This document shows, in pieces, positions 4,144-27,922 of a stretch of 64,000 nucleotides of DNA; within the stretch, counting starts at the first letter, position 1, and every line of letters starts with the position of its first letter. Below the pieces are notes generated by a model. The model saw only the letters and a list, made by a program, of their open reading frames with translations. It had not been told where the DNA came from and made no database searches. The stretch spans positions 100,563-164,562 of the forward strand of contig NZ_CALMPA010000071.1 in NCBI RefSeq assembly GCF_937871615.1. The letters are read 5' to 3'. Source of the stretch: an uncultured Sphingomonas sp. (GTDB lineage: Bacteria > Pseudomonadota > Alphaproteobacteria > Sphingomonadales > Sphingomonadaceae). A program made the position numbers and the translations under genes.

Positions 4144-4144
4144 C

Positions 4145-4977: not shown

Positions 4978-5366
4978 CAGGTCAGCTCGCCGAACACGCG
5001 CTCGATCTTTTCCTTGAGAGCGGCGGGCGCGAACGGCTTGACGACATAATTGTTCACGCCGAGCGCCGCCGCCTTCTGCACGATTTCCTTGTCGGCGGAG
5101 CCGGTCAGCATGATGAACACGGTCTTGCCGATCGTCGCATCGGCGCGCACCGCCTGGAGGAATTCCAGGCCGTCCATTTCCGGCATGTTGAAATCGGAAA
5201 TAATCAGATGGACGCGATCGGCGCGGATCGCCTCCAGCGCCTCGGGCGCGGTCGGCTTGTCGCGCACGTCGCGGAAGCCGAGATCCTGGAGCGCGCGGCG
5301 GATCATCGCACGCATACTCGCCTGATCGTCGACCACCATCACCTTGATCTGAGCAGCAGCGGGCAT
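4977..5366 (-). CDS. cheY: CheY-type response regulator (system 1, distal)
   Basis: This 129-residue single receiver domain has all the CheY landmarks: VVDDQASM (acidic pair), ISDFNMPEMDG (phospho-acceptor Asp), MLTGSADK (Thr) and YVVKPF (Lys). It should carry the phosphoryl signal from CheA to the FliM/FliN switch or act as a phosphate sink. It overlaps cheB upstream and cheD downstream by single bases. The ATG at 5366 fits better than the TTG one codon earlier. Confidence 0.95.
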   Translation of the reverse strand: MPAAAQIKVMVVDDQASMRAMIRRALQDLGFRDVRDKPTAPEALEAIRADRVHLIISDFNMPEMDGLEFLQAVRADATIGKTVFIMLTGSADKEIVQKAAALGVNNYVVKPFAPAALKEKIERVFGELT

Positions 5367-7296: not shown

Positions 7297-7790
7297 GCCG
7301 CGATATCCAGATGCCGGGTGAGGCTGAGCGCATCGAGATCGAGCAGCAGCACCATTTCGCCCTTTTCGTCGCGCGACCCATCGCGCTGGCGGATCGCGAT
7401 CCGCACCAGCCCGGCGATCATGCTCGGCTCAAGCGTTTCCGTCTCGGGCGCGGGCTGCACGTCGGCGGCGGCGATCGCGACGATCTCGTTGACCTCATCA
7501 ACCAGGAAACCCGCCTGGCGCCCGGCGATGCTCACCACCAGGATGCACGAGCGCGGATGTATCTCGCTCGCCGCCCAGCCCAGCCGCTCGGCCAGCCCGA
7601 CAACGGGCACGACATTGCCGCGCAGATTGGTGACGCCCTTGATATAGCCCGGCACGTTGGGCAGCGGGGTTGGCGCCTCCCATTCGCGGATTTCGATCAC
7701 CGCGCCCATGTCGATGCCGAATGTCCGCTCGCCGAGCGAAAAGGTGACGATCTTGCGATCGGCGGCGGCGGAATCATTGGGGGCGGTCAT
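7293..7790 (-). CDS. cheW: CheW coupling protein (system 1)
   Basis: The 165-residue CheW domain protein has VTFSLGERTFGIDMGAVIEI at the front, PNVPGYIKGVTNLRGNVVPV in the middle and GFLVDEVNEIVAI near the end. It bridges chemoreceptors and CheA. It overlaps both cheA and cheR by 4 nt (ATGA-type overlaps), so it is part of one tightly coupled transcript. Confidence 0.96.
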   Translation of the reverse strand: MTAPNDSAAADRKIVTFSLGERTFGIDMGAVIEIREWEAPTPLPNVPGYIKGVTNLRGNVVPVVGLAERLGWAASEIHPRSCILVVSIAGRQAGFLVDEVNEIVAIAAADVQPAPETETLEPSMIAGLVRIAIRQRDGSRDEKGEMVLLLDLDALSLTRHLDIAA

Positions 7791-9925: not shown

Positions 9926-10287
9926 GGGCAGACCCGGCGGATCGCCGCTCCCAGCTTGTCCGCGTCGAACGGCTTGGTGATCCAGCCGGTCGCGCCGGCA
10001 TCGCGCGCGCGCACCTTCTTCTCGTCCGAAAATTCGGTGGAGAGCACCAGGATCGGCGTACCGCGAAATTCGGATAGGGCGCGCACCGCCTCGATCAGCT
10101 CGAAACCGTCCATGCGCGGCATGTTGATATCGGTGATGAGCAGATCGGGCTTCAGCTCATGCATCCGCTCCAGGCCGTGCACGCCGTCGTTCGCGCCTTC
10201 GATGCGAAAGCCCTGCGCGGAAAGCGAGGCGCGCAGCAACATCCGCATACTCGCCGAATCATCGACGGTCAGAATCAACTTGGTCAC
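9922..10287 (-). CDS. cheY: CheY-type response regulator (system 1, proximal)
   Basis: The 121-residue receiver domain has LTVDDSASM, ITDINMPRMDG (phospho-acceptor Asp), LSTEFSDE and WITKPF, so it is complete. It starts at a GTG (10287) that overlaps the stop of the STAS gene and itself overlaps cheA by 4 nt. It is closer in sequence to the CheY of system 2 (both have GATGW before KPF) than to the other CheY of its own operon, which suggests the STAS-cheY-cheA block of the two systems shares ancestry. Confidence 0.94.
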   Translation of the reverse strand: MTKLILTVDDSASMRMLLRASLSAQGFRIEGANDGVHGLERMHELKPDLLITDINMPRMDGFELIEAVRALSEFRGTPILVLSTEFSDEKKVRARDAGATGWITKPFDADKLGAAIRRVCP

Positions 10288-10571
10288 AGGGAATCTCCCG
10301 TTTCGAGGCCCACCGCGGCGGCCAGCCGGCAGCGCGTGACCCGCTCCACGAACGCGGGGCTTGGGTCGATGATGGCGAAGGCGCGCCCCGCGCCGCGCGC
10401 CTCGGCGCAGGCGGCGACGAGAATCTGGAGCACGGCCTGGCCGATATTCTCCACCGCCGACGCATCGACCGCGATCGCGCCATCCCCCGCCATCGCGGCG
10501 AGCAGGCTATCGCGCAGCGCAGGCGCGCTCACGGTGGTGGCGTTGGGCGAAAGGCGCGGCGGGCAGTCCAT
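10284..10571 (-). CDS. STAS-domain protein of the chemotaxis operon
   Basis: This 95-residue protein fits a single STAS domain (SpoIIAA/MlaB-like): an early strand around LSPNATTVSA, the central GAIAVDASAVENIGQAVLQIL and the late GRAFAIIDPSPAFV. At the place where anti-anti-sigma factors carry a phosphorylatable Ser (DSSG), it has ENIG, so it probably is not a phospho-switch of that type. STAS proteins at the head of che operons are known but poorly understood. The ATG at 10571 lies 4 nt after the motA stop; a GTG at 10583 is an alternative. Confidence 0.8.
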   Translation of the reverse strand: MDCPPRLSPNATTVSAPALRDSLLAAMAGDGAIAVDASAVENIGQAVLQILVAACAEARGAGRAFAIIDPSPAFVERVTRCRLAAAVGLETGDSL

Positions 10572-10575
10572 CGGC

Positions 10576-11460
10576 TCAGCCACGGGCCACCGCCAGTCCG
10601 TCCCGCGCCTCATCAAGAACGGATTCGAGTTGCTGGAAGCTCGGCGCCAGTGCCGATGGCGTCATGCGGCGCGCGATTTCCACGGCGACCGTGACGGGCT
10701 GATGCTGGGCATAAGCGACGATCGCCGCCTTCGCCACGGCATAGGGCTGGCGATCGGCGTCGATCGTCTCCTGCAACTTGCCGGCGATCGGGCCGACCAC
10801 GCAATAGCTTAACAGCACGCCAAGGAAGGTGCCGACCAATGCGCCGCCGATCATCGCGCCAAGGATTTCGGTCGGCTGGTCGATCGAGCCCATCGTCTTG
10901 ATGACGCCAAGCACGGCGGCGACGATGCCGATCGCGGGCAGGCCATCGGCCATCACCTGCAAGGCGTGCTGCGGGCCGGATTCCTCGTGATGGTGGCGTT
11001 CGATATCGGCCTCCATCACCGCTTCGAGCTGATGCGGATCCTCGAAATTCAGCGTCATCATCCGCAGATAGTCGCAGACGAATTCCATCAGCCCGCGATC
11101 GGCCAGCAGCCGGGGATAGGCCCCGAACAGCGGGCTCGCCTCCGGCGCGTCGAGATGCGCCTCGATCCCGGTCGCGCCATCCTTCTTGAAGGTGGAAAGC
11201 AGCCCGAACATCAGCGTGAGAAGATCGGCATAATCCTGTTCCTTCCAGCGCGGCCCGCGGAATGCGCGTTTTATGCCGGCCATCGCTTTCTTGAGCGTCG
11301 CGGTCGAATTGCCGACGATGAACGCGCCAAGCGCCGCGCCCGCGATCGCCATCATCTCATGCGGCAGCGCATGAAGGATGATCTCCAGCTTGCCGCCGGA
11401 AATGATGAAGCTCCCGAACACACAGCCGAGAATGATGAGGAAACCTGCGCCGTTCAGCAT
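10576..11460 (-). CDS. motA: Flagellar stator protein MotA
   Basis: The 294-residue membrane protein has four predicted transmembrane segments: ILGCVFGSFIISGG, MMAIAGAALGAFIVG, LPAIGIVAAVLGVIKTMG and IGGALVGTFLGVLLSYCVVG. The family motif around ALQVMADGLPAIGIVAAVLG is intact. MotA is the outer stator subunit that pushes the rotor. It leads a 13-gene minus-strand operon. A CCTATAATT element lies 35 nt upstream. Confidence 0.95.
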   Translation of the reverse strand: MLNGAGFLIILGCVFGSFIISGGKLEIILHALPHEMMAIAGAALGAFIVGNSTATLKKAMAGIKRAFRGPRWKEQDYADLLTLMFGLLSTFKKDGATGIEAHLDAPEASPLFGAYPRLLADRGLMEFVCDYLRMMTLNFEDPHQLEAVMEADIERHHHEESGPQHALQVMADGLPAIGIVAAVLGVIKTMGSIDQPTEILGAMIGGALVGTFLGVLLSYCVVGPIAGKLQETIDADRQPYAVAKAAIVAYAQHQPVTVAVEIARRMTPSALAPSFQQLESVLDEARDGLAVARG

Positions 11461-11494
11461 GGCGGGAGCGAAGTCCTTGTTCTGGTGATGTGGG

Positions 11495-11503
11495 AATTAT
11501 AGG
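11495..11503 (-). promoter_or_regulatory. Promoter-like element CCTATAATT upstream of motA
   Basis: The minus strand reads CCTATAATT 35 nt before the motA start, which would give a short leader if TATAAT is a -10 box. It is the clearest copy of the recurring element. No obvious -35 box is seen 17 nt upstream. Confidence 0.45.
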
Positions 11504-11591
11504 ATGATCGCCGGCCTGCCGGGCGTCCGCCGCCAAATTGGTGTCCGCGCCCGAATGTCGCGCCGCCATCGGCTCAAATGGCGCAATCCAT

Positions 11592-11600
11592 CCTACAATT
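11592..11600 (+). promoter_or_regulatory. Promoter-like element CCTACAATT upstream of flaF
   Basis: This near-match to the recurring CCTATAATT element lies 24 nt before flaF and points along the flaF strand. Together with the motA copy about 90 nt away on the other strand, it suggests a divergent promoter region between motA and flaF. Confidence 0.35.
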
Positions 11601-11623
11601 ATTTCGTCAGCAAAGGAGCCAGC

Positions 11624-11986
11624 ATGACATTGAATGCCTATCACGCGGCCCGTGCGCGGGCCGAGACGCCCCGCGCCGCAGAATTGCGGCTGCTCGGCCA
11701 GATCACCGGCGAAATGATGGAGGCGGAGGAAAATGGCCTGAGCGGGCCGGGGCTGATGCCCGCGCTGCACCGCAACCGCGAAATGTGGTCGGCCTTCTCG
11801 GCTGATTGCGGCACGACGGGCAACGGCCTGCCCCCGGCGCTGCGCGCGCAGCTCATCTCGCTCGCCCTATGGGTCGATCGCTTCACCAGCGAGGTGGTGG
11901 CGGGGCGCGCGCGGATCGGCGAGCTGATCGACCTCAACCGCACGATCATGGAGGGCCTGCGCGGCCCGGCGCTCGCCGCCGCCTGA
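11624..11986 (+). CDS. flaF: Flagellin synthesis regulator FlaF
   Basis: The 120-residue protein begins MTLNAYHAARARAETPRAAE, typical of FlaF, and has the family's NREMWSAFSADC and WVDRFTSEV segments. In Caulobacter and related bacteria FlaF works with FlbT to control flagellin translation or secretion. The ATG at 11624 follows a strong AAAGGAGCC site. flbT is not next to it here. Confidence 0.9.
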   Translation: MTLNAYHAARARAETPRAAELRLLGQITGEMMEAEENGLSGPGLMPALHRNREMWSAFSADCGTTGNGLPPALRAQLISLALWVDRFTSEVVAGRARIGELIDLNRTIMEGLRGPALAAA

Positions 11987-11994
11987 GCGCGTTG

Positions 11995-12049
11995 AACGCC
12001 CGGCGGGAGGGGGAACAGCGGATCGCCGCTCCCCCTCCCGCCGGGCGTT
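11995..12049. terminator. Bidirectional hairpin between flaF and the receptor gene
   Basis: Perfect 20-bp complementary arms lie at 11995-12014 and 12030-12049, with a short GC-rich loop and a start of AACGCC on both arms. It sits in the 70-nt gap between two converging genes, so it can end transcription from both sides. Confidence 0.8.
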
Positions 12050-12056
12050 CGCATTT

Positions 12057-13931
12057 TCAGAAGGTCGCCCAGTCGTCGACCATCACGCGCGACGCGGGCG
12101 CCGCCATATTGTCATTCGAGATCGGCGCGATCGGCAGCGGCGCCACCGGCGAGACATAGGGCTTGTCCGCCGCCACCGCAGGCTTGCGAATCTCGACGCG
12201 CGCCGCCTGGCCGGTGTTGAACTTCCCGGCCTGCCCCGCGAGCAGCGCCACCTCGCTCGTCAGGTTCCGCGCCGCCGCCGAGGTTTCCTCCACCATCGCC
12301 GCATTCTGCTGCGTCGCCTGATCCATCGCGCCGATCGCGCTGCTGATCTGGGTGACGGCGGTGGATTGCGCCTGATTATCCTCCGCCATCTTGCCGAGCA
12401 GCGAATGGACCTCGCTCACGTCGTCGCGGATATCGGCCAGCGCGGCATCCACCTTCTGCACCATTTCCACCGCGGCCACGATATCCGTCTGGGTGGTGGT
12501 GAGCTGCGCGCGCGCGCGCCCGGCTTCTTCCTCCGCGCGCATCGCCAGCGCCGATACGAGATCGGCCACCACCGCGAACCCGCGCCCGGCTTCGCCCGCG
12601 CGCCCGGCCTCGACGGCGGCGTTCATCGCCAGCACGCGCGTCTGGAATGCGATCTTGTCCAGCCCCTCGATCACGCCGTCGATGCCTTGCGCGCTTTCGC
12701 TAACGCGGGTCATCGCGCGCACCGCATTGTCGGCGATATCGCGCCCACCGGCGACGGTCGCGATCGCGCCATCGGCGCGCGCGACGGTGCTGGCCGCGGC
12801 GGTGACCCCGGCCTTCAGGCGTTGATCCATCTCGGCCAGCGCGGCGGAGGTCTGCTCAAGGCTCGCGGCATTGGCCTCGGTACGGCGCGCCAGATCCTCG
12901 GATGCCTGCGCGATCTCGCCCGAGCCGACGCGGATCACCTCGGTCGAGCCGAGCGCCGATCCGATCAGCTCGCGCAGGCTCGCCAGCGCGTCGTTGAAAT
13001 TGTCGCGCAGTTCGGCGAAGCCGGCGGGATATTCGGTCGTGATCCGCGCGGTGAGATCGCCCCCGCGCAACGCGGCGAGCGCCTCGGCAAGCGAACTGGT
13101 GACGCCTTGCCGCTCTGCGGCGGCCTGGGCATCGGCTTGCGCGCGGTGCGCGGCGGCAAGGCGGAATTGCTCGACCGCGTTGGCGATCTGCCCGATCTCG
13201 TCGCCGCGCGCGCGATGCGGCACGGTGCGCGCCTCGCCTTCCGCCAGCGCGGTGGTCACCACGGCGAGATCGGCCATCGGCCGCGCCACCGTGCGGCTGA
13301 TCGCCAGCCAGATCCAGCCGAGCGTGAACAGCGAAAGGAGCGATGCGCCGATCGTGAACAGGAACGCGAGATACGCGTCCGCGACATTGCGCTCATTCGC
13401 CTTGTGCGAACGATCGGCCATCTGGTCGATCAGGTTGCGCGTCTCCGTCAATGCTTTGGTCGAGCGCGCGCCCCACTCGCCCTTGGCCAAGGCGATCATG
13501 CCGGCGCGATCGCCCGCCGCGCCAAGCGCGAAAATGCGTTCATCGACGCCAAGCATTTCCGCCACCGTCGACTGGAGCTGCGCGGCTTCGCCCTGCAACT
13601 CCGGCCCGGCGATCTTCTGATAGTCGGCGAGGCCGGCGGACAGCCGCTCGCGCCCCTTGGCCGCACGGGTGCGTAATTCGCCCTGCCGCGCCGCGTCAGT
13701 CGCGTCGGCGAAGCCGGAAACCGCATATTGCAGATCGGCGATTTCGCCGAGCATCTCCCCCAGCGCACGCGTCCCCGCCACGCCACGCTCGACGTGCATT
13801 GTGCCGGCGGCGGTCAGCCAGCGGTTCGAAAGACAGGCGTTGAGGGCGAGCGCGCCACTGAACAACGCGAGAAAAGCGAAGGCGGCGAGCATCTTCTTTG
13901 CAAGCCGCCAGTTATCGACGAAAGCGAACAT
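12057..13931 (-). CDS. Methyl-accepting chemotaxis protein with C-terminal DWATF tether-like peptide
   Basis: The 624-residue receptor has an N-terminal membrane helix (about residues 12-32), a periplasmic helical domain to about 185, a second helix (FLFTIGASLLSLFTLGWIWL), a HAMP domain and a signalling domain. The hairpin tip reads [19 protein letters not shown] rather than the usual [17 protein letters not shown]. The last six residues, DDWATF, resemble the NWETF pentapeptide that docks CheR and CheB. It faces flaF across a terminator and is near system 1, to which it probably couples. A CCTATAATT element lies 68 nt upstream. Confidence 0.92.
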   Translation of the reverse strand: MFAFVDNWRLAKKMLAAFAFLALFSGALALNACLSNRWLTAAGTMHVERGVAGTRALGEMLGEIADLQYAVSGFADATDAARQGELRTRAAKGRERLSAGLADYQKIAGPELQGEAAQLQSTVAEMLGVDERIFALGAAGDRAGMIALAKGEWGARSTKALTETRNLIDQMADRSHKANERNVADAYLAFLFTIGASLLSLFTLGWIWLAISRTVARPMADLAVVTTALAEGEARTVPHRARGDEIGQIANAVEQFRLAAAHRAQADAQAAAERQGVTSSLAEALAALRGGDLTARITTEYPAGFAELRDNFNDALASLRELIGSALGSTEVIRVGSGEIAQASEDLARRTEANAASLEQTSAALAEMDQRLKAGVTAAASTVARADGAIATVAGGRDIADNAVRAMTRVSESAQGIDGVIEGLDKIAFQTRVLAMNAAVEAGRAGEAGRGFAVVADLVSALAMRAEEEAGRARAQLTTTQTDIVAAVEMVQKVDAALADIRDDVSEVHSLLGKMAEDNQAQSTAVTQISSAIGAMDQATQQNAAMVEETSAAARNLTSEVALLAGQAGKFNTGQAARVEIRKPAVAADKPYVSPVAPLPIAPISNDNMAAPASRVMVDDWATF

Positions 13932-15658: not shown

Positions 15659-15691
15659 ATGACCGCGAAGAATTTCGCGAGGCGCGCATGA
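15659..15691 (+). CDS. Possible 10-residue leader peptide coupled to the STAS gene
   Basis: A short frame encodes MTAKNFARRA and stops with TGA overlapping the ATG of the next gene (ATGA). It has its own good ribosome site (AGAGGAA, about 9 nt upstream), better placed than any site for the STAS gene itself. It may serve translational coupling. It is too short to be supported by coding statistics. Confidence 0.35.
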   Translation: MTAKNFARRA

Positions 15692-15999
15692 CGATGGCCA
15701 TCGAACTTTCCGGGCCGGTGACCATCCGCAACATCGCGACATTGCACCAACAACTGACGCAGGCTTGCGACGGCGCGATTGACGTGACGGTCGATCTCGC
15801 GGCGATCGGCGAGGTCGATCTGAGCTTCGTGCAAACGATCCACGCCGCCCGCCGCGCGGTGGCCGACGCCGGGCGCGTGCTGCGCCTCGTCGTCCCTGCC
15901 CCCGCGCATGTCGCCGATCTGCTCGATCGCGCGGGTTTTCTCGCCGCCCCCACGCGCGACGATCTCGATTTCTGGTTCCACGGAGAATTGCCGCAATGA
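15688..15999 (+). CDS. STAS-domain protein (system 2)
   Basis: The 103-residue STAS domain protein begins MAIELSGPVTIRNIATLHQQ and has the central VDLAAIGEVDLSFVQTIHAA and the late RLVVPAPAHVADLLDRAGF. Unlike the STAS protein of system 1, it keeps a Ser (DLSF) near the position phosphorylated in anti-anti-sigma factors. It leads the second che operon and overlaps cheY by 4 nt, the same STAS-cheY-cheA order as in system 1. A role in cluster assembly or in a partner switch is speculation. Confidence 0.8.
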   Translation: MTMAIELSGPVTIRNIATLHQQLTQACDGAIDVTVDLAAIGEVDLSFVQTIHAARRAVADAGRVLRLVVPAPAHVADLLDRAGFLAAPTRDDLDFWFHGELPQ

Positions 16000-16364
16000 C
16001 CGCCTCGATCCTCACGGTCGACGATTCACCTAGCCTGCGCATGGCGATCCGCATCGCGCTGACCGGCGCGGGCTATACCGTTTCCGAAGCCGGCGACGGG
16101 CTGGAGGGGCTGAACGCCGCGAAGGCCACGTCGTTCGACATGATTATCGCCGATCTCAACATGCCGAACATGGATGGGCTGACGATGATCCGCGAACTGC
16201 GGAAGGATCCCGGCAATTGCGGCACGCCGATCATCTTTCTCACCACCGAAAGCGATGAGTCGATGAAGCAGCAGGCCAAAGCCGCCGGGGCGACCGGCTG
16301 GCTGGTGAAGCCGTTCGTCCCCGAACAACTGATCCGCGTCGCCAAGAAGGTGCTTGGCCGGTGA
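15996..16364 (+). CDS. cheY: CheY-type response regulator (system 2)
   Basis: The complete 122-residue receiver has LTVDDSPSLRM, IADLNMPNMDG (phospho-acceptor Asp), FLTTESDES and WLVKPF. It lies between STAS and cheA with 4-nt overlaps on both sides. Because it belongs to a second pathway, its output may be something other than the flagellar switch. Confidence 0.94.
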   Translation: MTASILTVDDSPSLRMAIRIALTGAGYTVSEAGDGLEGLNAAKATSFDMIIADLNMPNMDGLTMIRELRKDPGNCGTPIIFLTTESDESMKQQAKAAGATGWLVKPFVPEQLIRVAKKVLGR

Positions 16365-18325
16365 GCGCGCCCGATCCGATCGCCGCATTCCGGCTGGAGG
16401 CGAGCGACCTGCTCGACCAGATCGAACAGGCGCTGCTCGACCTCGGCCACCGGCTCGACGATCGCGATCTCGTCGATGCGGTGTTTCGCGGGCTGCACAC
16501 GCTCAAGGGATCGGGCGCGATGTTCGGTTTCGATGCGCTCGCCAGCTTCACCCATCATTGCGAGACGGCGTTCGACCGCGTCCGCAAGGGGCTGGCCCCC
16601 GCCACCGCCGAACTGGTCGCGGTGATCCTTTCGGCACGAGACCATATGCGCGCGCTGGTGGAAGGCGACGGCGCCGGGCTGGAGGCCGCGGGCGACGCCA
16701 TCCTCACCGATCTGCAAGCCGCGATCGACGGGGCGCCGCCGCTCGACGCCACGACTGGTGGCGCACCGTCGCCGCAACGCGGCTGGCGGCTGTTTTTCCG
16801 CCTCCCCGCCGATGCGATGGCGAACGGCACCAACCCGCTGACGCTGCTCGACGAACTGCGCGCGCTCGGCGAGTGCCGCATCGTCGCGCATCCCGACGCG
16901 ATCCCGCCCCTCCCCGCGCTGATCCCAAGCGAATGCCATATCGCGTGGGAAGCGGAATTGCGCGGAGACATCACGCGCGAGGATATCGAGGACGTGTTCA
17001 TCTTCGTGATGGACGATATGGAATTGCGCATCGAGCCGCTCGCGGCGCCCGATGCCCCGAGCGAGCCGGCGGCGACGCCGACCACGTCCGCGCCCGCCGC
17101 CGCCAACGACAGCGCCGCCCCGGCGACGCGCGCCACCGCCAAACCGCAGGGCGAGAATGTCCGCGTTCCGGCTGAGCGGCTCGACGAGCTGATGAACCGG
17201 GTGGGCGAACTGGTGATCGTGCAGAGCCGGTTGTCGCAGCTCGCCAACGCCGTCGGCAGCAGTCTCGCGCTGCGTTCGATATCGGAGGAGATCGAGCGGC
17301 TCGCCGGTGAATTGCGCGACACGATGATGGTGCTGCGGATGGTGCCGGTGGCCACGCTGTTCAGCCGCTTCCGCCGCCTTGTCCACGATCTGGCGCGCGA
17401 TACCGGCAAGGCGATCGACCTCCACACCGAAGGCGAAAGCACCGAGGTCGACAAGACGGTGATCGAGCGTCTCGCCGATCCGCTCATCCACCTGATCCGC
17501 AACGCCTGCGATCATGGGCTGGAGACGCCTGCGGAGCGCATCGCCGCCGGCAAGCCCGAGGCCGGGCGCATCGCGCTCACCGCGCATCAGGCGGGCGGCG
17601 AGGTGGTCATCACCATCCGCGACGACGGGCGCGGCATTGATCGGGCACGGGTGCGCGCGAAGGCCGAAGCGCACGGGCTGATCCAGCCGGGGCAGCAGCT
17701 TGCCGATCATGATCTGCTTCAGCTCATCTTCCACCCCGGCTTTTCCACCGCCGCCGAAATCACCAGCCTTTCCGGGCGCGGCGTCGGCATGGATGTCGTC
17801 AAGCGCACGATCGAAAGCCTGCGCGGCGCGATCGACGTGACCAGTACGCCCGGCGAAGGATCGGTGATCGAGCTGCGGATTCCGCTGACGCTCGCGATCA
17901 TCGACGGGCTGCTCGTGCGCGTCGGCGAGGGGCGCTACGTCATCCCACTCGCCGCGGTCGAGGAATGTATCGAGCTGAGCCTCGAAGACGATCTGCGCGC
18001 GCGCGGACGCAGCCTGATCTCGCTCCGGGACCGGCTGGTGCCGTTCCTCCGGCTGCGCGAATTGTTCGACACCGGCACCCGGCCCGATCCGCACCAGAAG
18101 ATCGTCGTGATCGCGACGGGCGCGGAGCGCGTCGGGCTGGTGGTCGATCAGATCATCGGCAGCCATCAGACCGTCATCAAATCCATGTCGCCGCTGCATC
18201 GCGAGGTGACGACCTTCGCGGGCGCCACGATCCTCGGCGACGGCGATGTCGCGCTGATCCTCGACGTGACGCAGCTCGTCGCCCTTGGCCAGCATCAGGA
18301 GGAGCGGCTGCGCGCCGCTGGATGA
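16361..18325 (+). CDS. cheA: Chemotaxis histidine kinase CheA (system 2)
   Basis: The 654-residue kinase has an HPt domain with H46 (FRGLHTLKGSGAMFGF), a P2-like region around RLFFRLPADAMANGTNPLTL, a dimer domain from about 265 (ENVRVPAERLDELMNRVGEL), ATPase motifs (IRNACDHGLET, IRDDGRGIDR, GRGVGMDVV) and a CheW-like end. It is shorter than the system 1 CheA and lacks that protein's duplicated linker. The GTG or TTG alternatives are not needed; the start overlaps cheY by 4 nt. Confidence 0.96.
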   Translation: MSAPDPIAAFRLEASDLLDQIEQALLDLGHRLDDRDLVDAVFRGLHTLKGSGAMFGFDALASFTHHCETAFDRVRKGLAPATAELVAVILSARDHMRALVEGDGAGLEAAGDAILTDLQAAIDGAPPLDATTGGAPSPQRGWRLFFRLPADAMANGTNPLTLLDELRALGECRIVAHPDAIPPLPALIPSECHIAWEAELRGDITREDIEDVFIFVMDDMELRIEPLAAPDAPSEPAATPTTSAPAAANDSAAPATRATAKPQGENVRVPAERLDELMNRVGELVIVQSRLSQLANAVGSSLALRSISEEIERLAGELRDTMMVLRMVPVATLFSRFRRLVHDLARDTGKAIDLHTEGESTEVDKTVIERLADPLIHLIRNACDHGLETPAERIAAGKPEAGRIALTAHQAGGEVVITIRDDGRGIDRARVRAKAEAHGLIQPGQQLADHDLLQLIFHPGFSTAAEITSLSGRGVGMDVVKRTIESLRGAIDVTSTPGEGSVIELRIPLTLAIIDGLLVRVGEGRYVIPLAAVEECIELSLEDDLRARGRSLISLRDRLVPFLRLRELFDTGTRPDPHQKIVVIATGAERVGLVVDQIIGSHQTVIKSMSPLHREVTTFAGATILGDGDVALILDVTQLVALGQHQEERLRAAG

Positions 18326-18328
18326 GCT

Positions 18329-18853
18329 ATGACCGAACCAACACCCACCAACTGGGATGAATCCGGCACGCTGGAGGTGCTGACCTTCGATATCGGCGGC
18401 GAGACACTCGCGCTCGAAGCCGTGCTCGTCCGTGAGATCCTCGATCTGCTGCCCGAAACCGTCGTGCCCGGCGCGCCGCCGCTCGTGGCGAGCGTCATCA
18501 ATTTCCGTGGCCGGATCATTCCGCTCGCTGATCTGAGGGTCGCGTTCGGGATGCCGAGCGGCGATCGCACCGTGGACAGCCGGATCGTGGTGATCGAAAT
18601 CGCCACCGAAGACGAGCCGATCCACATCGGCCTGCGCGCCGACAAGGTTCACGAGGTCGCCACGCTACGCCGCGACAGCAGCGAACCGCCGCCCGCGATC
18701 GGGATGCGCTGGCGGCGCGATTACGTCCGCGATCTCGTCCGCCATGCCGATGGCGTGGTCATCCTGCCGGACCTGCCGGCCATTTTCCATTCTTCACTCG
18801 CCGGAGAAGGTGGCGATTCCGCGCAGCGGCCCGCCTCCACCGTCCACCAATAA
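18329..18853 (+). CDS. cheW: CheW coupling protein (system 2, first copy)
   Basis: The 174-residue CheW domain protein has [19 protein letters not shown] at the front, then [20 protein letters not shown] and the later [13 protein letters not shown]. It links the receptor at 18870 to CheA. It starts 3 nt after the cheA stop and is followed 16 nt later by the receptor gene. Confidence 0.94.
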
Positions 18854-18869
18854 CCCCAGGGGGAAACCC

Positions 18870-20681
18870 ATGCGCGCTACAATCAAGCTGAAACTCGGAA
18901 TTACCTTCGGCATTGTCATCGCGGTGCTGATCGCGGTGAGCACCACCGCCGTGCTGCGGATGGCATCGCTCAATCAGGCCATTGGCGATCTGATCGCCGG
19001 CCCGTCGGCGCGGCTGGATGTCGCGCAACTGATCCGCGCGAACTTCAGCGACATCGCCCGCAACGAACGCAATATCGCACTCACCACCGACACGGAACTC
19101 GGGAAGGAATTCGACGCGAAGATCACCAAGTCGCGCGGCATTTTCGAAGAACTGCTCGACAAGGGCGAACATCTCGCCACCCCGGCGAGCAAGGATACCT
19201 GGCGCAATATCCGGGCGACCTACGAAACCTTCAAGCCGATCGACGACAGGATCCGTATGCTGGGCCTGTCGAACAAGAACGCCGAATCCGGGGTGCTTTC
19301 GCTTGGTGACGGGCGCCGCGCCAACGATCAGATCTTCAAATATTCGCAGGATCTGGTCGATCAGGCGCGCGATGAGATGGAGCAGGCCAGCAAGAACGCC
19401 GAACAGGTCTATCTCGATGCGCGCACGATCCTGTTTACCGCATCGGTCATCGCCTTTCTCGTCGCGCTGGCGGGCGCCGTCTGGCTTTCGATGATCGTTT
19501 CGCGCGGCCTGAAGCGCATTGCCCATGCCGTGGACGCGGTGGCGATCGGCGATCTCGAACAGGAGGTCAAAGTCACGTCGAACGACGAAATCCGCGATCT
19601 CGTCGATACCGTCAACGGCATGACCGCCAACCTGCGCGTCAGCGCCGGCCTCGCGGACAAGATCGCCAATGGCGATCTGACGATGCAGCATACCCCGCTT
19701 TCGCAGAAGGACATGCTCGGCCACGCGCTGGTCCGCATGATCGAGCGCCTGCGCGGCGTGGTGGGCAATGCCAACGCCGCCGCGAATAATGTGTCGACCG
19801 GCAGCCAGCAGCTTTCGGCAAGCTCGGAGCAGGTATCGCAGGGGGCGACCGAGCAGGCCGCCGCGGCGGAACAGGCTTCCGCTTCGATGGAGGAGATGGC
19901 CGCCAACATCAAACAGAATGCCGACAACGCCGCGCAGACCGAGAAGATCGCGCGCCAGTCCTCCAAGGATGCCGAAACCAGCGGCGTCGCGGTGGAAAAG
20001 GCCGTGATCGCGATGCGCACCATCGCGGACAAGATCGGCATCGTGCAGGAAATCGCGCGCCAGACCGATCTGCTCGCGCTCAACGCGGCGGTGGAGGCCG
20101 CGCGCGCCGGTGAGCATGGCCGCGGCTTCGCGGTGGTCGCCTCCGAAGTGCGCAAGCTCGCCGAGCGCAGCCAGACGGCGGCGGCTGAAATCGGCGCGGT
20201 CTCGTCCGATACGGTTCACGCCGCCACCGAGGCGGGCGAGATGCTGACGCGGCTGGTGCCCGATATCCGCCGCACCGCAGAGTTGATCGCCGAGATCAGC
20301 GCCGCCTGCCGCGAACAGGATATCGGGGCGGCCCAGATCAACGAAGCGATCCGCCAGCTCGATCAGGTCACGCAGCAGAATGCCGGCGCATCGGAGCAGA
20401 TTTCGAGCACGTCCGAGGAACTGGCCGCGCAGGCGGAGGAATTGCAGACCAGCATCTCCTATTTCCGCGTTTCCGCCGCCGATGGCGCGCAGCGCGCGGG
20501 CGGAGCCAAGCCCCGCCAGGCCGCACCGCGCGCGACGCATCGCCCGATGACGGCCCCTGCGAAGGCCGCCGCGCGGCCCAACCCGGTCCACGATCAGCAG
20601 GCGCGCGCGAAAGGCTTCGCGCTCGACCTGACGAACGGCGGCCCGGATGCGGAGGATGCCGAGTTCGGACAGGCGGCATGA
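18870..20681 (+). CDS. Methyl-accepting chemotaxis protein, 4-helix-bundle type (system 2)
   Basis: The 603-residue receptor has two transmembrane helices (about residues 9-30 and 190-212) around a helical-bundle sensor domain, then HAMP and a standard signalling domain with the canonical tip [19 protein letters not shown] and [18 protein letters not shown]. It ends without a CheR-binding pentapeptide. It sits between two cheW genes and overlaps the second by 4 nt. The ATG at 18870 follows AGGGGGAAA. Confidence 0.94.
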
Positions 20682-21163
20682 CCGGCGCGGCCGATATCCA
20701 GGCGGTAACCTTCGGCCTGGGCGACGAGACGTTCGCGGTGCCGGTGGAATATGTGCGGGAGATCCTCGATTATCGGGAAACCTTCCGCATCCCGAACGGC
20801 CCCGCCTGGCTGCTCGGCCTCACCGACATGCGCGGTCAGGGGGTGGCGACGATCGACTTCCGGGTGCGGCTCGGCCTGCCCGCGACGGTCGCGTCCCCTG
20901 CCACCCGCATCCTCGTGGTGGATGTGCCGCTGGAGGATCGGGCGCTGACGCTCGGGCTGGTGGTCGATCGCGTGCTGGAGGTGAGCAGCCTTCAGCGCGG
21001 CGCGATCGAGCCGGCGCCGGATATCGGGGTGGCATGGCCGTCGGACTTCATCGCCGGCATGATCCGGCGCACCGAGGGCTTTGTCGTATTGCTCGATATC
21101 GCGCGGATTTTCTCCGCCGCGGATGCCGGGGCGCTCGCCGCCCCGGCGCTGGCCGCCGCCTGA
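20678..21163 (+). CDS. cheW: CheW coupling protein (system 2, second copy)
   Basis: The 161-residue CheW protein has [18 protein letters not shown], the core [19 protein letters not shown] and the late [14 protein letters not shown] second cheW in the operon is common where more than one receptor type must be linked. It overlaps the receptor stop (ATGA). Confidence 0.94.
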
Positions 21164-21249: not shown

Positions 21250-22104
21250 TTGCCCGCGACCGCTCGCCTCGCCCATGCCGCCGCCTCGCCACTCGGCGAG
21301 CGCAATTTCCGGCGGCTGGCCGCCTTCATCCACGATCAGGCGGGCATCAAGATGCCGGCGAACAAGAAGGCGATGCTGGAGAGCCGGCTTCGCCGCCGGC
21401 TCGACGCGACCGGCGCGCGGACGCTCGACGAATATTGCGATTTCCTATTCGCGGGCACCAATGCGGATCGTGAAAGGCCGCATCTCATCAACGCGGTGAC
21501 CACCAACAAAACCGATTTCTTCCGCGAACCGGTGCATTTCACCTATCTGCGCGAAACATTGCTTCCCGCGCTCGCCGCGCGCGGCAGCCAGCCGGTCCGC
21601 GCCTGGAGCGCGGCCTGCTCGACCGGGCCGGAAGCCTATACGATCGCCATGGTGCTCGACGATTTCGCCGCAGGCGGCGCCGGCCCCGCGTTCGGCATCC
21701 TTGCCACCGATATCGACACCGAGGTGCTGGCGATCGCCCGAGCCGGCATCTATCCGGCGCAATTGCTCGATCCCGTGCCGCCGTTGCTGCGGCACAAATA
21801 TGTCATGTCGCCGAGGAACCCCGCGCGGCGCGAGGTGCGCATCGCCCCGGCTTTGCGCAGCGCGATCGGCTTCGCGCGGCTCAACCTGATGGACGATCAT
21901 TATCCGATCGGCGCGCCGATGGACCTGATATTCTGCCGCAACGTGCTGATCTATTTCGATAAACCCACGCAGTTCCGCGTGGTGTCCCGCCTTACCGATT
22001 GCCTCGCCCCCGGCGGCCATCTGTTCCTCGGCCATTCGGAATCCATCACCGGGCTTGATCTGCCGCTGGAGCAGGTCGCCAACACCGTCTTCCGCCGGAG
22101 CTGA
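21250..22104 (+). CDS. cheR: Chemotaxis protein methyltransferase CheR (system 2)
   Basis: The 284-residue enzyme has [12 protein letters not shown], the SAM-binding [18 protein letters not shown] and the end motif [15 protein letters not shown] with LGHSESI. Translation probably starts at a TTG (21250), 8 nt after GGAG; there is no in-frame ATG that keeps the N-terminal domain. It is followed by cheB after 4 nt. Confidence 0.94.
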
Positions 22105-22108
22105 GCCG

Positions 22109-23179
22109 ATGATCCGCGTGCTCGTGATCGACGATTCCGCCAGCGTCCGCCAGACGATGACCCGCGTTCTGGAGGAAGACCCCGAGATCAGGGTGATCGC
22201 CGCCGCCGCCGATCCGTTCAGCGCGGCGCGGCACATCCAGGAGGAGGTGCCCGACGTCATCACGCTGGATGTGGAAATGCCGCGGATGGACGGCATCACC
22301 TTCCTGCGCAAGCTGATGCAGCAATGCCCGGTGCCGGTGGTGATGTGCTCATCGCTGACCGAAGACGGCTCGGAAACCCTGCTTCAGGCGATGGAGGCGG
22401 GCGCGGTGGATGTGATCCTGAAGCCAAGCATCGGCGTCGCGGATCATCTGATCGAACATAATATGCGGATTCGGGAGGTGGTGAAGGGCGCCGCGCGCGC
22501 GCGGGTCGGCAACCGGCCGAAGCCGCGCCCGATCGCCGCCGCCCCGCAGCAGCGGCTGACCGCCGACGCGGTGTTGCCCGCGCCCAATGGCAAGCCGATG
22601 AGCCGCACGACGGAAATGGTGGTGTGCATCGGCGCGTCGACCGGCGGGACCGAGGCGTTGCGCGCTGTGCTGGAGGTGCTGCCCGCCAATGCGCCCGGCA
22701 TCCTTGTCGTCCAGCATATGCCCGAACGCTTCACCCGCGCCTTCGCCTCCCGGCTGGACGGGCTGTGCGAAGTGAGCGTGAAGGAAGCCGCCGATGGCGA
22801 TCCGGTGCTGCGCGGGCATGTGCTGATCGCGCCGGGCGGTCGCCACCTGATGCTCCAGCGGCAGGGTGCGCGTTATCATGCGGTGGTGCGCGACGGGCCT
22901 CTGGTATCGCGCCATCGCCCGTCGGTCGACGTGCTGTTCCGTTCCGCCGCCCGATCGGCGGGATCGAACGCGATCGGCATCATCATGACCGGCATGGGCG
23001 ACGATGGCGCGCGCGGCCTCCTCGAAATGAAGCAGGCGGGCGCGCGGACGTTCGCGCAGGATGAGGAAAGCTCGGTCGTGTTCGGTATGCCCAAGGAAGC
23101 GATAGCGCGCGGCGCCGCCGACCGGATCGTGCCGCTTGGCGATATCGCGCGGGAATTGCTCGCGGCGACCATGCGCTAG
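22109..23179 (+). CDS. cheB: Protein-glutamate methylesterase CheB (system 2)
   Basis: The 356-residue protein has a receiver domain ([10 protein letters not shown]; phospho-acceptor D54 in [10 protein letters not shown]) and a methylesterase domain with GASTGG (S177), VQHMPERF (H203) and [10 protein letters not shown]. It is the last gene of the tight system 2 run. It has an insert-like basic linker at about residues 128-168. The ATG at 22109 gives the expected MIRVLVIDD. Confidence 0.96.
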
Positions 23180-23221
23180 CCCATTTCAGTCCGCCGCCTG
23201 TGCCCCGGCGCGGATTTTCTT

Positions 23222-23254: not shown

Positions 23255-24973
23255 GTGTATTTCGCCAACAACATAACGGGCTCCGCCGAACCATGTTCGG
23301 CGCTGGAGAGCCTTGAAGCGGAATTGCGCGATCTGACAAGCAATCTCGACAGCCGGTTCGTGCGCGCCGGGCAGACGCTTGGCGAGGCATATGACATCGT
23401 GGAGCGGCTGATCGGCGGCCTCGACGGCGTGATTCACGCGCTGGACGAGGATGCCGCCAACGCCGCGATCGCGCGAATGCAGGCGACCGCCAGTCATCTG
23501 ATGCGGATTCCCGAGCGGCAGGCGGCGCGCGCGGACGCGTTCGACACGATCCGCGCCATGAACGGCGCGATCGGGCAGCAGATGTGGAAGATCAACCGCC
23601 TGCTCAGCTTCCTCAGGATTTGCGGCCTGAACATCAAGATCGCCGCCGCGGGCGCACAGGATTTCGCGGATTTCGCCGAGATCATCTTCGCCCGGATTGA
23701 TCTGGGCGAGCGCGAGATCAGTGAGATCGGTCGCACCTCGGAGCGATTGCACGCGGGCATCGCCGGGGTGGAGGATGTGGAACATCGCCTCGCCGCCGAA
23801 AGCCGGCGCGTCGTGCCGGCGGTTCCGCAGAAGCTGAACGCCGATGCCGACGCGCTCGCCCTTCACCAGCAGAATTCGAGCGCGCGCGCCACGCGCAGCG
23901 CGGAGGTGGCGCGTGCGCTGCGTGCGCCTGTCGCCGCCGCGATCGGCGCGATCCAGATCGGCGACATCACGCGGCAACGGCTTGAGCATGTGACGGACGG
24001 CATTCGCGCGGCGCGCGCGTTCCTGGCCGAACACCCCGATATCGACACCGGCGCCGCAACCGCGATCCACGATCATGTGCTGGCGATGCTGGCGGCGCAG
24101 GCCGAAGATACCATTCGCGATATGGCGCGGGATTCGCGCGTGCTCACCGAAAGTATGCAGGCGATCAGCCCCGGCGTCGCGGCGCTGCTCGAACTCGCCG
24201 GCACCGCGGACGCTTCGCCCGAGGGCGTCGCCTTGTTCGAAACGGTGGAACGCAACATCCGCCAGGTCACCACGCTGACCAGCCAGTTGCATGAGGCCGA
24301 TGCGCGATCGAGCCGGTTGGGCAACGACGCATCGGCGACGGCGAACGATCTCGCGCGCCGCGCGCGGCATATCCATCGCATCACCAACGATGTGCAGCAG
24401 ATGGCGTGGAACACCGATCTGCGCTGCCACCGCATGGGGGACGAGGGCCGCGCGCTTGCCAGCGTCGCGGGCGAAATCCGTGGTCTGGCAAACCAGCTCG
24501 AAACAATATCATCCGATATTTCCAGCCTGTTCGACCGGCTGGCGGACGCCGCCGCGGCGATCCGCGCGCCATGGGAGGACGTGCCCGATGCAGCCGGCGC
24601 GCTGACCGGATCGCTCGACTTTATCCGCACCGGCAGTGATCGGTTGCAGGCCAGCCTCGCCGCATTGCGGCGCGATATCGAAACCGTGGCGCTTGTTCTC
24701 GACGGGATCGAGCGCGCGGTCGATTGCGAACAGCTTGTCGCCGATCTGTCGCGGATCGCCACCGGAATCGGCGCATTCGGCGCGGCGACCGATCCCGCGC
24801 GCGAAGATATCGCGCCGTTGCTGGACGAGTTGCTTCGCGGAATCGCCGCCACCTACACCATGACCCGCGAGCGCGAGGTTCATCGCCTGTTCGCCGCCGC
24901 CGAGGACGCCACCGACCCGGCCGGAACGGTAGAAGCGATGGCCGAGGATGATTTCGACGACGGTCTGTTCTGA
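23255..24973 (+). CDS. Soluble receptor-like protein with CheZ-type DITRQ motif and acidic CheZ-like tail
   Basis: This 572-residue protein has no transmembrane segment and appears almost entirely helical. Residues 234-246 read IQIGDITRQRLEH, where D237-x-x-x-Q241 has the CheZ catalytic spacing and context (QDLTGQ in CheZ). Around residues 385-420 there is a decayed receptor tip: WNTDLRCHRMGDEGRALASV and AGEIRGLANQLE. The last residues, AEDDFDDGLF, resemble the acidic, Phe-ending CheY-P-binding tail of CheZ. The start is GTG after GGGAGG. A CheY-P phosphatase built on a receptor-like scaffold is the favoured inference. Confidence 0.6.
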   Translation: MYFANNITGSAEPCSALESLEAELRDLTSNLDSRFVRAGQTLGEAYDIVERLIGGLDGVIHALDEDAANAAIARMQATASHLMRIPERQAARADAFDTIRAMNGAIGQQMWKINRLLSFLRICGLNIKIAAAGAQDFADFAEIIFARIDLGEREISEIGRTSERLHAGIAGVEDVEHRLAAESRRVVPAVPQKLNADADALALHQQNSSARATRSAEVARALRAPVAAAIGAIQIGDITRQRLEHVTDGIRAARAFLAEHPDIDTGAATAIHDHVLAMLAAQAEDTIRDMARDSRVLTESMQAISPGVAALLELAGTADASPEGVALFETVERNIRQVTTLTSQLHEADARSSRLGNDASATANDLARRARHIHRITNDVQQMAWNTDLRCHRMGDEGRALASVAGEIRGLANQLETISSDISSLFDRLADAAAAIRAPWEDVPDAAGALTGSLDFIRTGSDRLQASLAALRRDIETVALVLDGIERAVDCEQLVADLSRIATGIGAFGAATDPAREDIAPLLDELLRGIAATYTMTREREVHRLFAAAEDATDPAGTVEAMAEDDFDDGLF

Positions 24974-25066: not shown

Positions 25067-25774
25067 ATGCGTTTCGTCATTCCATCGGGGCTGGCCCCGT
25101 TTCTTTTGCTTTCTGCCCCCGCCGCGATGGCCGAGGATGCGGCGCCCGCGTTCAAGGTTTCGGGCACCGCGACGCTCATCAGCGATTATCGCTTCCGCGG
25201 CATTTCGCAGACCGACAAGGCGCCAGCCGTCCAGGGGACGATCGGGCTTTCGCACGATAGCGGCTTCTATATCGGCACCTGGGCGTCCTCGATCGACCTC
25301 GATCAGCACCACGGCCCCACCGAAGTCGATCTCTACGGCGGCTGGGCGCGGATGGTGTCGCCGCGCGACAGCGTCGATATCGCGATCGCTTACTACGCCT
25401 ATCCCGGCCACAGCGGCGCGGTGCGCACCAACTTCATGGAAAGCAGCGCCAAGCTCACCCACGATTTCGGCCCGCTGAAAGCCACGATGGGCACCAGCTA
25501 CGCCTGGGATCAGGCGGTGCTCGGCGGCGACAGCCTCTATCTCTACGGCGAGGCGGCGGCGCCGGTTCCCCACACGCCCCTCACCCTGAAGGCACATGCC
25601 GGGCGCAGCAAGGGCGCGCTCAGCCCCCGCGCGGGCGGTTATTACGACTGGTCGCTCGGCGCGGACGCCGCGTTCGGGCCGGTCACGCTGAGCGTCGCCT
25701 ATGTCGACACCGACCTGAAGCGAAATAACCAGGCCGCCGGCGGCGCCCTGTTCTCGATCAGCGCGGGCTTCTGA
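25067..25774 (+). CDS. TorF-family putative outer-membrane protein
   Basis: The 235-residue protein has a signal peptide (LAPFLLLSAPAAMAED) and then GTATLISDYRFRGISQTDKAP, the typical opening of the TIGR02001/TorF family of small beta-barrels. It has alternating strands with aromatic ends and closes on a C-terminal Phe, as outer-membrane barrels do. The substrate is unknown. It lies inside the chemotaxis cluster, just before a dCache receptor, which hints that it might bring in the ligand; this is inference. Confidence 0.85.
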   Translation: MRFVIPSGLAPFLLLSAPAAMAEDAAPAFKVSGTATLISDYRFRGISQTDKAPAVQGTIGLSHDSGFYIGTWASSIDLDQHHGPTEVDLYGGWARMVSPRDSVDIAIAYYAYPGHSGAVRTNFMESSAKLTHDFGPLKATMGTSYAWDQAVLGGDSLYLYGEAAAPVPHTPLTLKAHAGRSKGALSPRAGGYYDWSLGADAAFGPVTLSVAYVDTDLKRNNQAAGGALFSISAGF

Positions 25775-25804
25775 TCCCCCCATTCCTTCCACAGGAACAA
25801 GAGC

Positions 25805-27922
25805 ATGAAAAACATCTTCGATCGGATGCACATAGCGGGAAAGCTGATGACGGTCGCCGGGCTGGCGATCACCCTGCTGCTGCTGCTCGGTTTCTCATCG
25901 GTGGTGATCGAAACCCGGTCCACCGTGGGCAAGCTCTCCGATGAGGCAGCCATCGCGCAGGCGGACGCCGAGGGCAATCAGGTGAAAACCGATATCGCCG
26001 CGTTCGAGGCTACCGCGCGGGCGATGTCCTCCGCGCTCGGCAAGATGCACGCGAACGGCACCCACGATCGCGGCGTCGCGCTGGCGGTGCTCAAGACCGA
26101 TCTGCTCCAGTCGAAGACCGCGCTGGGTAGCTGGACGATGATCCTGCCCGATCAGTGGGACGGCCCCGATGCCGGGAAAAGCGGGGCTCCGGGTTCCACG
26201 TCCAACGGCAATTTCACGCCTTATTGGGTGAAGGTGAACGGAGTCGTCACCCAGTCGCCGCTCAATGAGCCGGGGGCATATGAAAAGCCGTATTTCCGCC
26301 GCGCCTATGACAGCGGCAAGGGCGCGATCGTCGAACCCTATGCCTATGACGTAAACGGCAAGAGCCTGATGATGACCTCGATCGCCCATCCGGTGCGTTC
26401 GGGCGAGCGCGTGATCGGCGTGGCCGGGATGGACATGGAACTGGGCAGCATTTCCGAGCGGCTCGGCGCGCTGCACCCGTTCGGCGATGGCCGCGTCATG
26501 CTGCTTTCGTCGGGGGCAAGTTGGGTAGCCAATCCCGATCCGGCGCAGCTCGGCAAGCTCTACGCCGGCCCCGGCCTCGACGAGGTCAGGGCCGCGTTGG
26601 CCAGCGGCAAGACGAAGGTGCTCACCGATCTCGACGTGAATGGCGTGCCGACCCGCCGCGTCATCAAGCCGCTGACGCTGGACAACCTCAACGCCACCTG
26701 GGCGCTCGTCCTCGACATTCCCGAGGCGACCGTCGGCGCGCCGGCGCGCGCGATCGTGTGGCAACTCGTGCTCGGCGGCATCGTGATCGTCGGCGCGGTG
26801 CTGGCCAGCCTGTTCTTCGCGGCACGCAATATCATCGGCCGCCCGATATCGGGGCTGAGCGAAGCCGTCGATCGTCTTGCCGGCGGCGAGGATTGCGCGA
26901 TCCCGCAACTCGCCCGCCGCGACGAGATCGGCACGATGGCGCGCGCCGCCGACGTGTTCCGCCAGGCCGCCGTCTCCCGCGCCGAGGCGGATCAGCGCGC
27001 GGCGGAGGAGCAGCGCGTCGTCACCACCTCCATCGGTGCGGGGCTGGACGCGCTGACGCGCGGCGATCTCACCGCCGAAATCACCACGCCGTTCCCGGCT
27101 GCCTATGCCGCGCTCAAGAACAACTTCAACGCGGCGATCGGAGAATTGCGGCGCATGATCGGCGCGGTGGCGACGAGCGCGGGCGGCATCCGCTCCGGCT
27201 CGCTCGAGATCGCCCAGGCATCGGAGGATCTCGCACGGCGCACCGAAGCCAATGCCGCGAGCCTTGAGGAGGCGTCAGCCGCCCTCACCCAGATCGACCA
27301 GCGCCTGAAGACCTCGGCAACCGCGGCCACGCAGACCGTCTCCCGCGCCGACGAAGCGCTGCGAACCGTATCGAGCGGCCGCGCGACCGCGGGCGAGGCG
27401 GTGGCCGCGATGGACCGGGTAAGCGAAAGCGCCAAGGGCATCGACGAAGTGATCGAGGGCGTGGACAAGATCGCGTTCCAGACGCGCGTGCTGGCGATGA
27501 ACGCCGCCGTCGAAGCGGGCCGGGCGGGCGATGCCGGGCGTGGATTCGCGGTGGTCGCCGATCTCGTCACCGCGCTTGCGATGCGCGCGGAGGAAGAAGC
27601 CAAGCGCGCGCGAGACCAGCTCACCGTCACCCAGTCGGACATCGTTACCGCCGTTGACGCGGTGCGCCGCGTGGACTCCACCTTCGAGACGATTTCCGGC
27701 GGCGTCGGCGAAGTGCATATGCTGCTGGGCGAAATGGCCAAGGACAATCAGGCCCAGTCCACCGCGATCAGCCAGATCAGCGTCGCGGTGGCGACCATGG
27801 ATCAGTCGACGCAGCAGAATGCGGCGATGGTGGAAGAAACCTCCGCCGCAGCCCGCAACCTGACGACCGAGGCGATCTCGCTCAACGATCAGGCCGCGCG
27901 CTTCGAAACGCGCGGGCGGTAA
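25805..27922 (+). CDS. Methyl-accepting chemotaxis protein with dCache sensor domain
   Basis: The 705-residue receptor has a first membrane helix (about residues 12-35), a dCache-type periplasmic domain ([19 protein letters not shown], then [15 protein letters not shown]), a second helix near 315-340, HAMP and a signalling domain. Its tip ([33 protein letters not shown]) matches the receptor at 12057, not the canonical receptor at 18870. It ends FETRGR with no CheR tether. Ligand class cannot be read with confidence. Confidence 0.93.

Follow-up and report, generated by a model that had tools for sequence, protein, structure and literature searches.

A protein of 572 residues, encoded at 23255–24973 of the 64 000-nucleotide stretch of DNA from an uncultured Sphingomonas sp. 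analysed here (the window), is proposed to serve its chemosensory system as the CheY-P phosphatase, with a receptor scaffold as its framework. The probability of this assignment, in which the catalytic activity is deduced from sequence, is estimated at roughly 60 %. Computation establishes the conservation of a motif and an acidic tail, two receptor-like hairpins, linkage to a chemosensory operon and mutual exclusion with CheZ in the sampled loci.

The gene follows an operon with the order STAS-cheY-cheA-cheW-mcp-cheW-cheR-cheB:

15688..15999, plus strand: STAS protein, first gene of the operon (Pfam)
15996..16364, plus strand: CheY, the likely substrate (Pfam)
16361..18325, plus strand: CheA, with an orthologue in exactly those 10 of 199 genomes that encode the 572-residue protein
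18329..18853, plus strand: CheW
18744..20681, plus strand: chemoreceptor with a 4HB sensor and HAMP, start probably later
20678..21163, plus strand: CheW, second copy
21250..22104, plus strand: CheR
22055..23179, plus strand: CheB, start probably later

The original prediction described a che operon with no other phosphatase upstream, and this was borne out by the eight genes found and by the genome as a whole, in which the Pfam models CheZ, CheX and CheC each found nothing (0 of 1 genome). A weak terminator-like stem is located at 23198–23213, between cheB and the 572-residue gene (such stems occur at 4 sites in the scanned stretch, with 1.6 expected). A second chemosensory cluster, encoding CheA, CheW, CheR, CheB and two CheY-like proteins, occupies positions 3292–13931 on the minus strand and is accompanied by motA and motB, with flaF on the plus strand; the focal operon is therefore a neighbour of flagellar genes. 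The region 3' of the 572-residue gene (25067–27922) encodes a Gcw_chp-family protein and another receptor-like protein.

The open reading frame begins with GTG, preceded by GGGAGG, and contains the following features:

23255..24973, plus strand: tandem-hairpin receptor-like protein, 572 residues, candidate CheY-P phosphatase (reading frame, conservation, AlphaFold2, hhalign)
23288..24031, plus strand: hairpin 1, receptor-like helices A and B, residues 12–259 (AlphaFold2, Foldseek, hhalign 98.5 against short-type relatives)
23630..23656, plus strand: decayed receptor tip 1, residues 126–134, loop shortened (alignment, tip-to-motif spacing)
23954..23989, plus strand: CheZ-like motif QxGDxxRQRxEH, residues 234–245, including D237 and Q241 (conservation)
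24047..24778, plus strand: hairpin 2, helices C and D, residues 265–508 (AlphaFold2, hhalign; weak MCPsignal match at 348–482)
24407..24475, plus strand: decayed receptor tip 2, residues 385–407 (Pfam, alignment)
24722..24745, plus strand: degenerate second motif copy DCEQLVAD, residues 490–497 (aligned to QFQDRTKQ of short-type relatives)
24854..24883, plus strand: YTMxxERxxH segment, residues 534–543, common to other architectures of the family (alignment)
24941..24970, plus strand: acidic C-terminal tail with DDGLF at its end, resembling a CheY-P-binding tail (conservation)

The three features from which a phosphatase was originally predicted had been read correctly, namely D237-I-T-R-Q241 within QIGDITRQR, the stretch WNTDLRCHRMGDEGRALASV (residues 385–404) and the terminal DDFDDGLF, to which the end of E. 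coli K-12 CheZ, DDLLDSLGF, may be compared. The decayed tip is present at 385–404 as described, but it is not the only one, as a second and more decayed tip lies at 118–160. Judged by the residues that are generally held to matter for kinase contact, the kinase-contact tip is not kept, with tip 2 being altered and tip 1 shortened. In the Pfam scan the protein missed the MCPsignal cut-off (23.9 bits, with 34.6 required) and matched neither CheZ (PF04344) at E 0.1 nor the CheC and CheX models. No strongly hydrophobic stretch is present (the highest 19-residue hydropathy mean is 1.46).

The combination of these features had been regarded as one not normally found in a single protein; instead, it proved to be the trait of a widespread family, and a unique oddity is ruled out by the relatives that share the same module. 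At E 0.01, a profile constructed from three one-tip relatives (A3) matched 134 of 397 Pseudomonadota genomes, a figure based on matches that were inspected in part and include true CheZ; in its own genome the 572-residue protein is the sole match. The relatives fall into several architectures. The short type has one canonical tip, the motif QFQDxxxQ and a tail such as DIELF or DITFF, with a hydrophobic stretch in five of the six proteins tested, and probably represents McpA-like membrane receptors. The long type is the tandem-hairpin architecture of the window protein, whereas the small type (150–224 residues) carries the motif and tail with the receptor part absent. Small proteins show QF.D...Q and tails ending ELF or DLF; they include those of L086–L089, where no che gene was recognised within the 5-kb loci, as well as three proteins (L182:7490-7942, L187:7428-7916 and L197:16295-16870) located 31–71 bases before cheY in clusters that contain cheA. 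The CheA matches of L182 and L187 show one in-frame TGA.

A fourth architecture, with Q..DRV.QRL and RYVMEEER and lacking the acidic tail, was encountered at six CheA loci, as proteins of 1208–1280 residues (three) or reading frames of 136–178 residues (three; L141, L146, L154, L190, L201 and L209 in all). The three of these proteins that were scanned had no Pfam match; they are possibly another branch of the module, and the adjoining CheA loci are, at a guess, of the pilus type. A longer one-tip form of 612 residues (L070:19-1857) has a tip, QFQDITRQR 114 residues further on, YVMDDQRRAH and the tail IQLF. At two loci (L024:8227-11731 and L031:5678-9214) tandem long-type paralogues follow cheB and are 31 % and 43–44 % identical to the window protein. 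The A3 profile also found alphaproteobacterial CheZ, with CNFQDLTGQR and the tail DIDALFD or similar, and five of these six scored above the Pfam CheZ cut-off, the sixth (L093) lying outside the scan. The family of the tandem-hairpin protein is widespread in Pseudomonadota and apparently unnamed, and among the literature matches listed, titles and abstract openings nowhere call such receptors phosphatases.

Conservation of D237 and Q241 among homologues, on which the original prediction had been staked, was found in 20 of 20 rows of an alignment comprising the query and 19 homologues, and the two residues played no part in finding these rows. The conservation of the tail also holds, in that the last four residues are identical in all 20 rows, although it is less independent of the search because MAEDDFDD, one of the six search peptides, falls within the tail. 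The alignment leaves out one strong match whose start is fused to another frame (L028) and eight weak ones (E 5e-9 to 7e-6); the named relatives belong to Novosphingobium and Sphingomonas. Invariant positions in the motif region are Q234, G236, D237, R240, Q241, R242 and H245, followed towards the C-terminus by Y534, M536, E539, R540, H543, D565 and D569–F572. In a broader long-type set (the window protein with 45 relatives that had passed a filter on motif or tail), only 16 columns are conserved at 90 % or more: F35, F140, Q234, D237, Q241, R242, H245, Q282, Y534, T535, M536, E539, R540, H543, L571 and F572; 13 of them belong to the motif, to the YTMxxERxxH segment or to the tail. Seven non-alphaproteobacterial long types (L067, L068, L076, L078, L097, L098 and L102:3645-5411) have lost both tips and still keep all three of these elements; for six non-alphaproteobacterial long types no che gene was recognised nearby, within short flanks.

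This pattern of conservation bears on the unlikely, though least improbable, alternative that the protein binds CheY-P without catalysis, the tail and motif retaining it at the array so that the protein serves as a sink or tether, while the signal would be terminated by CheY autodephosphorylation or by phosphate flow to another response regulator. The invariant tail end (20 of 20 rows) would suit such a role, and the two further CheY-like genes in the neighbouring cluster make a sink pathway possible. Nevertheless, binding alone would not obviously need Q241, which is kept together with D237, and hairpin 2 could lose both the D and the Q.

In the full-length AlphaFold2 model (mean pLDDT 82, pTM 0.57) the protein consists of long helices, with breaks at 63–64, 131–134, 187–188, 260–264, 317–321, 369, 393–397 and beyond 437, and with the ends (1–11 and 550–572) lacking a confident model. 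These predicted breaks may point to an antiparallel arrangement of four arms in which the two tips share one end. When the full model was searched against the PDB with Foldseek, none of the matches reached E 0.001; the first two were receptors, and the lower ones were receptors mixed with other long coiled coils. Hairpin 1 was for this reason modelled alone (residues 17–263, mean pLDDT 83, pTM 0.46), and its first ten PDB matches were chemoreceptor cytoplasmic domains, three of them at E 0.001 or better (best 4.2e-4), followed by SMC coiled coils at 0.025. CheZ was not among the 50 PDB matches listed.

Profile comparisons with hhalign point in the same direction. The long-type N half (39 alphaproteobacterial rows) scored 98.5 and the C half 99.2 against the short type (19 rows, likewise picked with motif or tail filters), and the latter alignment superimposes the tips, pairs DCEQLVAD with QFQDRTKQ and places YTM opposite its counterpart segment. 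The two halves scored 81 against each other over 222 columns with all 46 rows, 46 with the alphaproteobacterial rows alone and 0.2 with the seven others, so that the signal of a duplication fades within these subsets. Ordinary receptors (29 rows) scored 99.9 against the short type, 96.5 against the C half and 4.0 against the N half; hairpin 1 is therefore identified as receptor-like through its relationship to the short type and through its fold, rather than through any direct likeness to ordinary receptors. Taken together, profiles and fold comparison support the receptor scaffold that had been predicted, and the protein appears to combine two hairpins of the receptor type in a single chain, of which hairpin 1 keeps QxxDxxxQR and hairpin 2 holds a degenerate copy. 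The distance from tip to motif is 112 residues in 17 of the 19 short-type rows (otherwise 113 and 114), in five of six long-type rows with a full tip, and in 9 of the 11 rows of a CheA-centred sample in which both elements were recognised; it is 108 in the window protein, where the tip loop is shorter. A bare Q..D...Q was discarded as evidence, because it occurs somewhere in 44 of 58 other reading frames with a canonical tip (the 44 include at least four further short-type proteins), mostly 90 residues past the tip or 56 before it; the ordinary receptors of these operons often show it at the former position.

The receptor-like architecture could also indicate a soluble single-chain receptor or array scaffold, structural or sensory, in which the motif is a contact site. 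Apart from the two hairpins themselves, this doubtful reading can draw on the natural soluble single-chain receptor domains noted earlier in the available passages of PMC4692393, which, like their engineered counterparts, hold two receptor subunits per chain; those passages do not mention a phosphatase motif, which is present in the 572-residue protein. It can also draw on DosM of Vibrio cholerae cluster I, which likewise has two signalling domains per chain and is described, in the part of PMC7534058 available, as stabilizing cytoplasmic arrays in a scaffold role. However, the two signalling domains of DosM sit at opposite ends of the rod (PMC7534058), while here both tips would share one end. 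Moreover, both tips are decayed (at the fourth position past the asparagine of tip 2, 32 of 46 rows have R or K and only two have E), and the seven non-alphaproteobacterial rows dispense with tips, just as the small members dispense with the receptor part, while retaining motif and tail.

The resemblance to CheZ is a separate matter. CheZ acts at the phospho-aspartate of CheY through D143 and Q147, and its acidic tail captures CheY-P. Both E. coli K-12 and alphaproteobacterial CheZ share with the window protein a hairpin helix bearing the motif (FQDxTxQ there, QxGDxTRQ here), an acidic C-terminal tail with a hydrophobic end and chemosensory genes nearby; unlike CheZ, the window protein has a tandem hairpin, receptor-like tips and spacing, the additional YTMxxERxxH segment and no Pfam match. 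A CheZ profile of seven rows, from which three sphingomonad CheZ loci were left out, scored 72.6 over 49 columns against the short type, with FQDLTGQ on FQDRTKQ, and 54 against the non-alphaproteobacterial N half, compared with 12 against the alphaproteobacterial N half and 0.2 against the small type; receptors scored 12 against CheZ. Of the 25 family proteins scanned, at different thresholds, four have a match to a curated CheZ model that overlaps the motif: L172 (Pfam 4e-5, 24.0 bits, below the cut-off of 30.7; NCBIfam 0.0041), L084 (0.0095), L097 (0.047) and L044 (0.0063). Homology of the family to CheZ is no more than suggested by these sequence comparisons, and the scores of 12 and 0.2 do not establish it for the window protein, whose DxxxQ motif could be convergent. 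Nevertheless, the protein may well work like CheZ.

Gene order and co-occurrence link the family to chemosensory systems. The long type directly follows cheB in 25 of 46 loci, and two more are second tandem copies; among the other loci, several lie near che genes on the opposite strand and several with short flanks show none. All ten short-type loci fetched with wide flanks contain cheA and none a recognisable cheZ. At L117 the order is short type, receiver-SpoIIE phosphatase, cheY, cheA, cheW, PAS/HAMP receptor (ending EWEQF), cheR, cheD and cheB, and at L122 it is cheB, short type, STAS and receiver-SpoIIE phosphatase, while L121 carries a short type in an operon whose CheA is 56 % identical to that of the window. 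The N-half profile had matches in 10 of 199 Sphingomonadaceae genomes, and an orthologue of the operon CheA (at least 59 % identity and at least 760 bits, the next best being 378) was found in the same ten, an overlap that is partly due to shared descent of the operon. As a linkage test, only the orthologous CheA is informative, since the CheA domain family occurs in 140 of 199 genomes.

Among 89 CheA loci, CheZ scored above its threshold in 16, the family of the tandem-hairpin protein in 22, both in none and neither in 51, which corresponds to P 0.006 for the lack of overlap with the 16 CheZ loci, in a calculation that ignores phylogeny and uses class thresholds set after the score table had been seen. 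A CheZ truncated by the edge of locus L168 (116 bits against E. coli CheZ) fell short of the threshold; its inclusion raises the CheZ total to 17 and leaves the overlap at 0. The sample comprises the CheA places listed for one genome, the first in the list, from each of 62 genera, plus two of G277; some loci are truncated where the contig stops, a second CheA is present in two regions, and the window genome, L118 and L121 were left out, the latter two being already known as short-type positive. Of the 24 family members in this sample, 23 retain both D and Q (L136:1902-3188 keeps D only). Five of the 24 are rows of the motif-containing family profiles; once these are set aside, the figure is 18 of 19. 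Replacement of CheZ on a genome-wide scale is ruled out, as CheZ and the long type occur together in G377, G548 and G765.

The position of the long type directly after cheB in 25 of 46 loci might suggest that the protein dephosphorylates or partners a different receiver, for instance the receiver domain of CheB, instead of CheY. This is quite improbable, as 6 of the 12 short-type loci inspected have a cheY-like gene as the immediate neighbour of the short type and cheY adjoins the small protein in L182, L187 and L197. That the protein is a receptor which has simply decayed and lost any function, as the weak MCPsignal match might suggest, can hardly be credited given the invariance of the motif and YTMxxERxxH residues across 46 rows and the presence of the protein in all ten genomes with the operon CheA.

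Comparable proteins are known from other systems. CheT of Sinorhizobium meliloti and Agrobacterium fabrum, compared here by description only, is likewise an alphaproteobacterial chemotaxis protein with a DXXXQ motif; according to the part of PMC12654446 available, it enhances the dephosphorylation of one CheY and has a predicted structure reported to resemble CheZ, and, unlike the 572-residue protein, it is not described there as receptor-like. The McpA-like receptors of F7 systems (PA0180/CttP and VCA1088) offer a parallel in gene order: in the available passages of PMC7184735 their genes occupy the same place, either following cheB or leading the cluster. By description and gene order, the short-type proteins of F7-like clusters found here are most likely McpA-like receptors. 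They share QxxDxxxQ and the acidic tail with the 572-residue protein, but not the spacing of 112, the single tip and the membrane stretch; McpA-like receptors are membrane-bound with one canonical tip (PMC7184735), whereas the 572-residue protein is soluble with two hairpins.

The evolutionary stages of F7 systems outlined in the same passages (Ortega et al., PMC7184735) provide a framework for these observations. In stages 1 and 2, cheZ occurs only in F6 clusters; in stage 3 the mcpA-like gene has been lost and the F6 cheY/cheZ pair retained. The conserved C-terminus of McpA is called important there, its role being described as unclear (PMC7184735). The L117 and L122 orders resemble stage 2 and stage 1, respectively, with the short type holding the mcpA-like place (PMC7184735), and the window order approximates stage 1 with the 572-residue gene in the mcpA place, although it lacks cheD as well as the STAS and phosphatase genes further downstream. 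Organisms with early F7 systems also carry an F6 system with cheZ, and CheZ could therefore serve both systems in the same cells (PMC7184735).

In the proposed mechanism, the two receptor-like hairpins would together make up a rod of four helices, one end of which holds both decayed tips, and this receptor shape may place the protein in or near the receptor array. The acidic tail ending DGLF would capture CheY-P in the manner of the CheZ tail, and hairpin 1 would present D237 and Q241 to the CheY phospho-aspartate, as CheZ presents D143 and Q147, thereby aiding the attack of water; hairpin 2 would have lost its copy of the motif.

The McpA-like, tandem-hairpin and small proteins, together with the variant of other chemosensory clusters, may constitute a receptor-derived superfamily of CheY-P phosphatases, a proposal for and against which the odds appear even. 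If this is true, the superfamily would represent the missing phosphatases of CheZ-less systems, and in the many sampled chemosensory clusters without CheZ the family would supply the enzyme that switches CheY off. CheZ and the receptor-derived module may share an origin. Such a superfamily would explain the strong conservation of the McpA-like C-terminus, which would thereby gain a testable role, as well as the loss of the McpA-like gene once the F7 system had taken over CheY and CheZ, a history taken from PMC7184735. Receptor-like proteins would then erase the chemosensory signal as well as start it.
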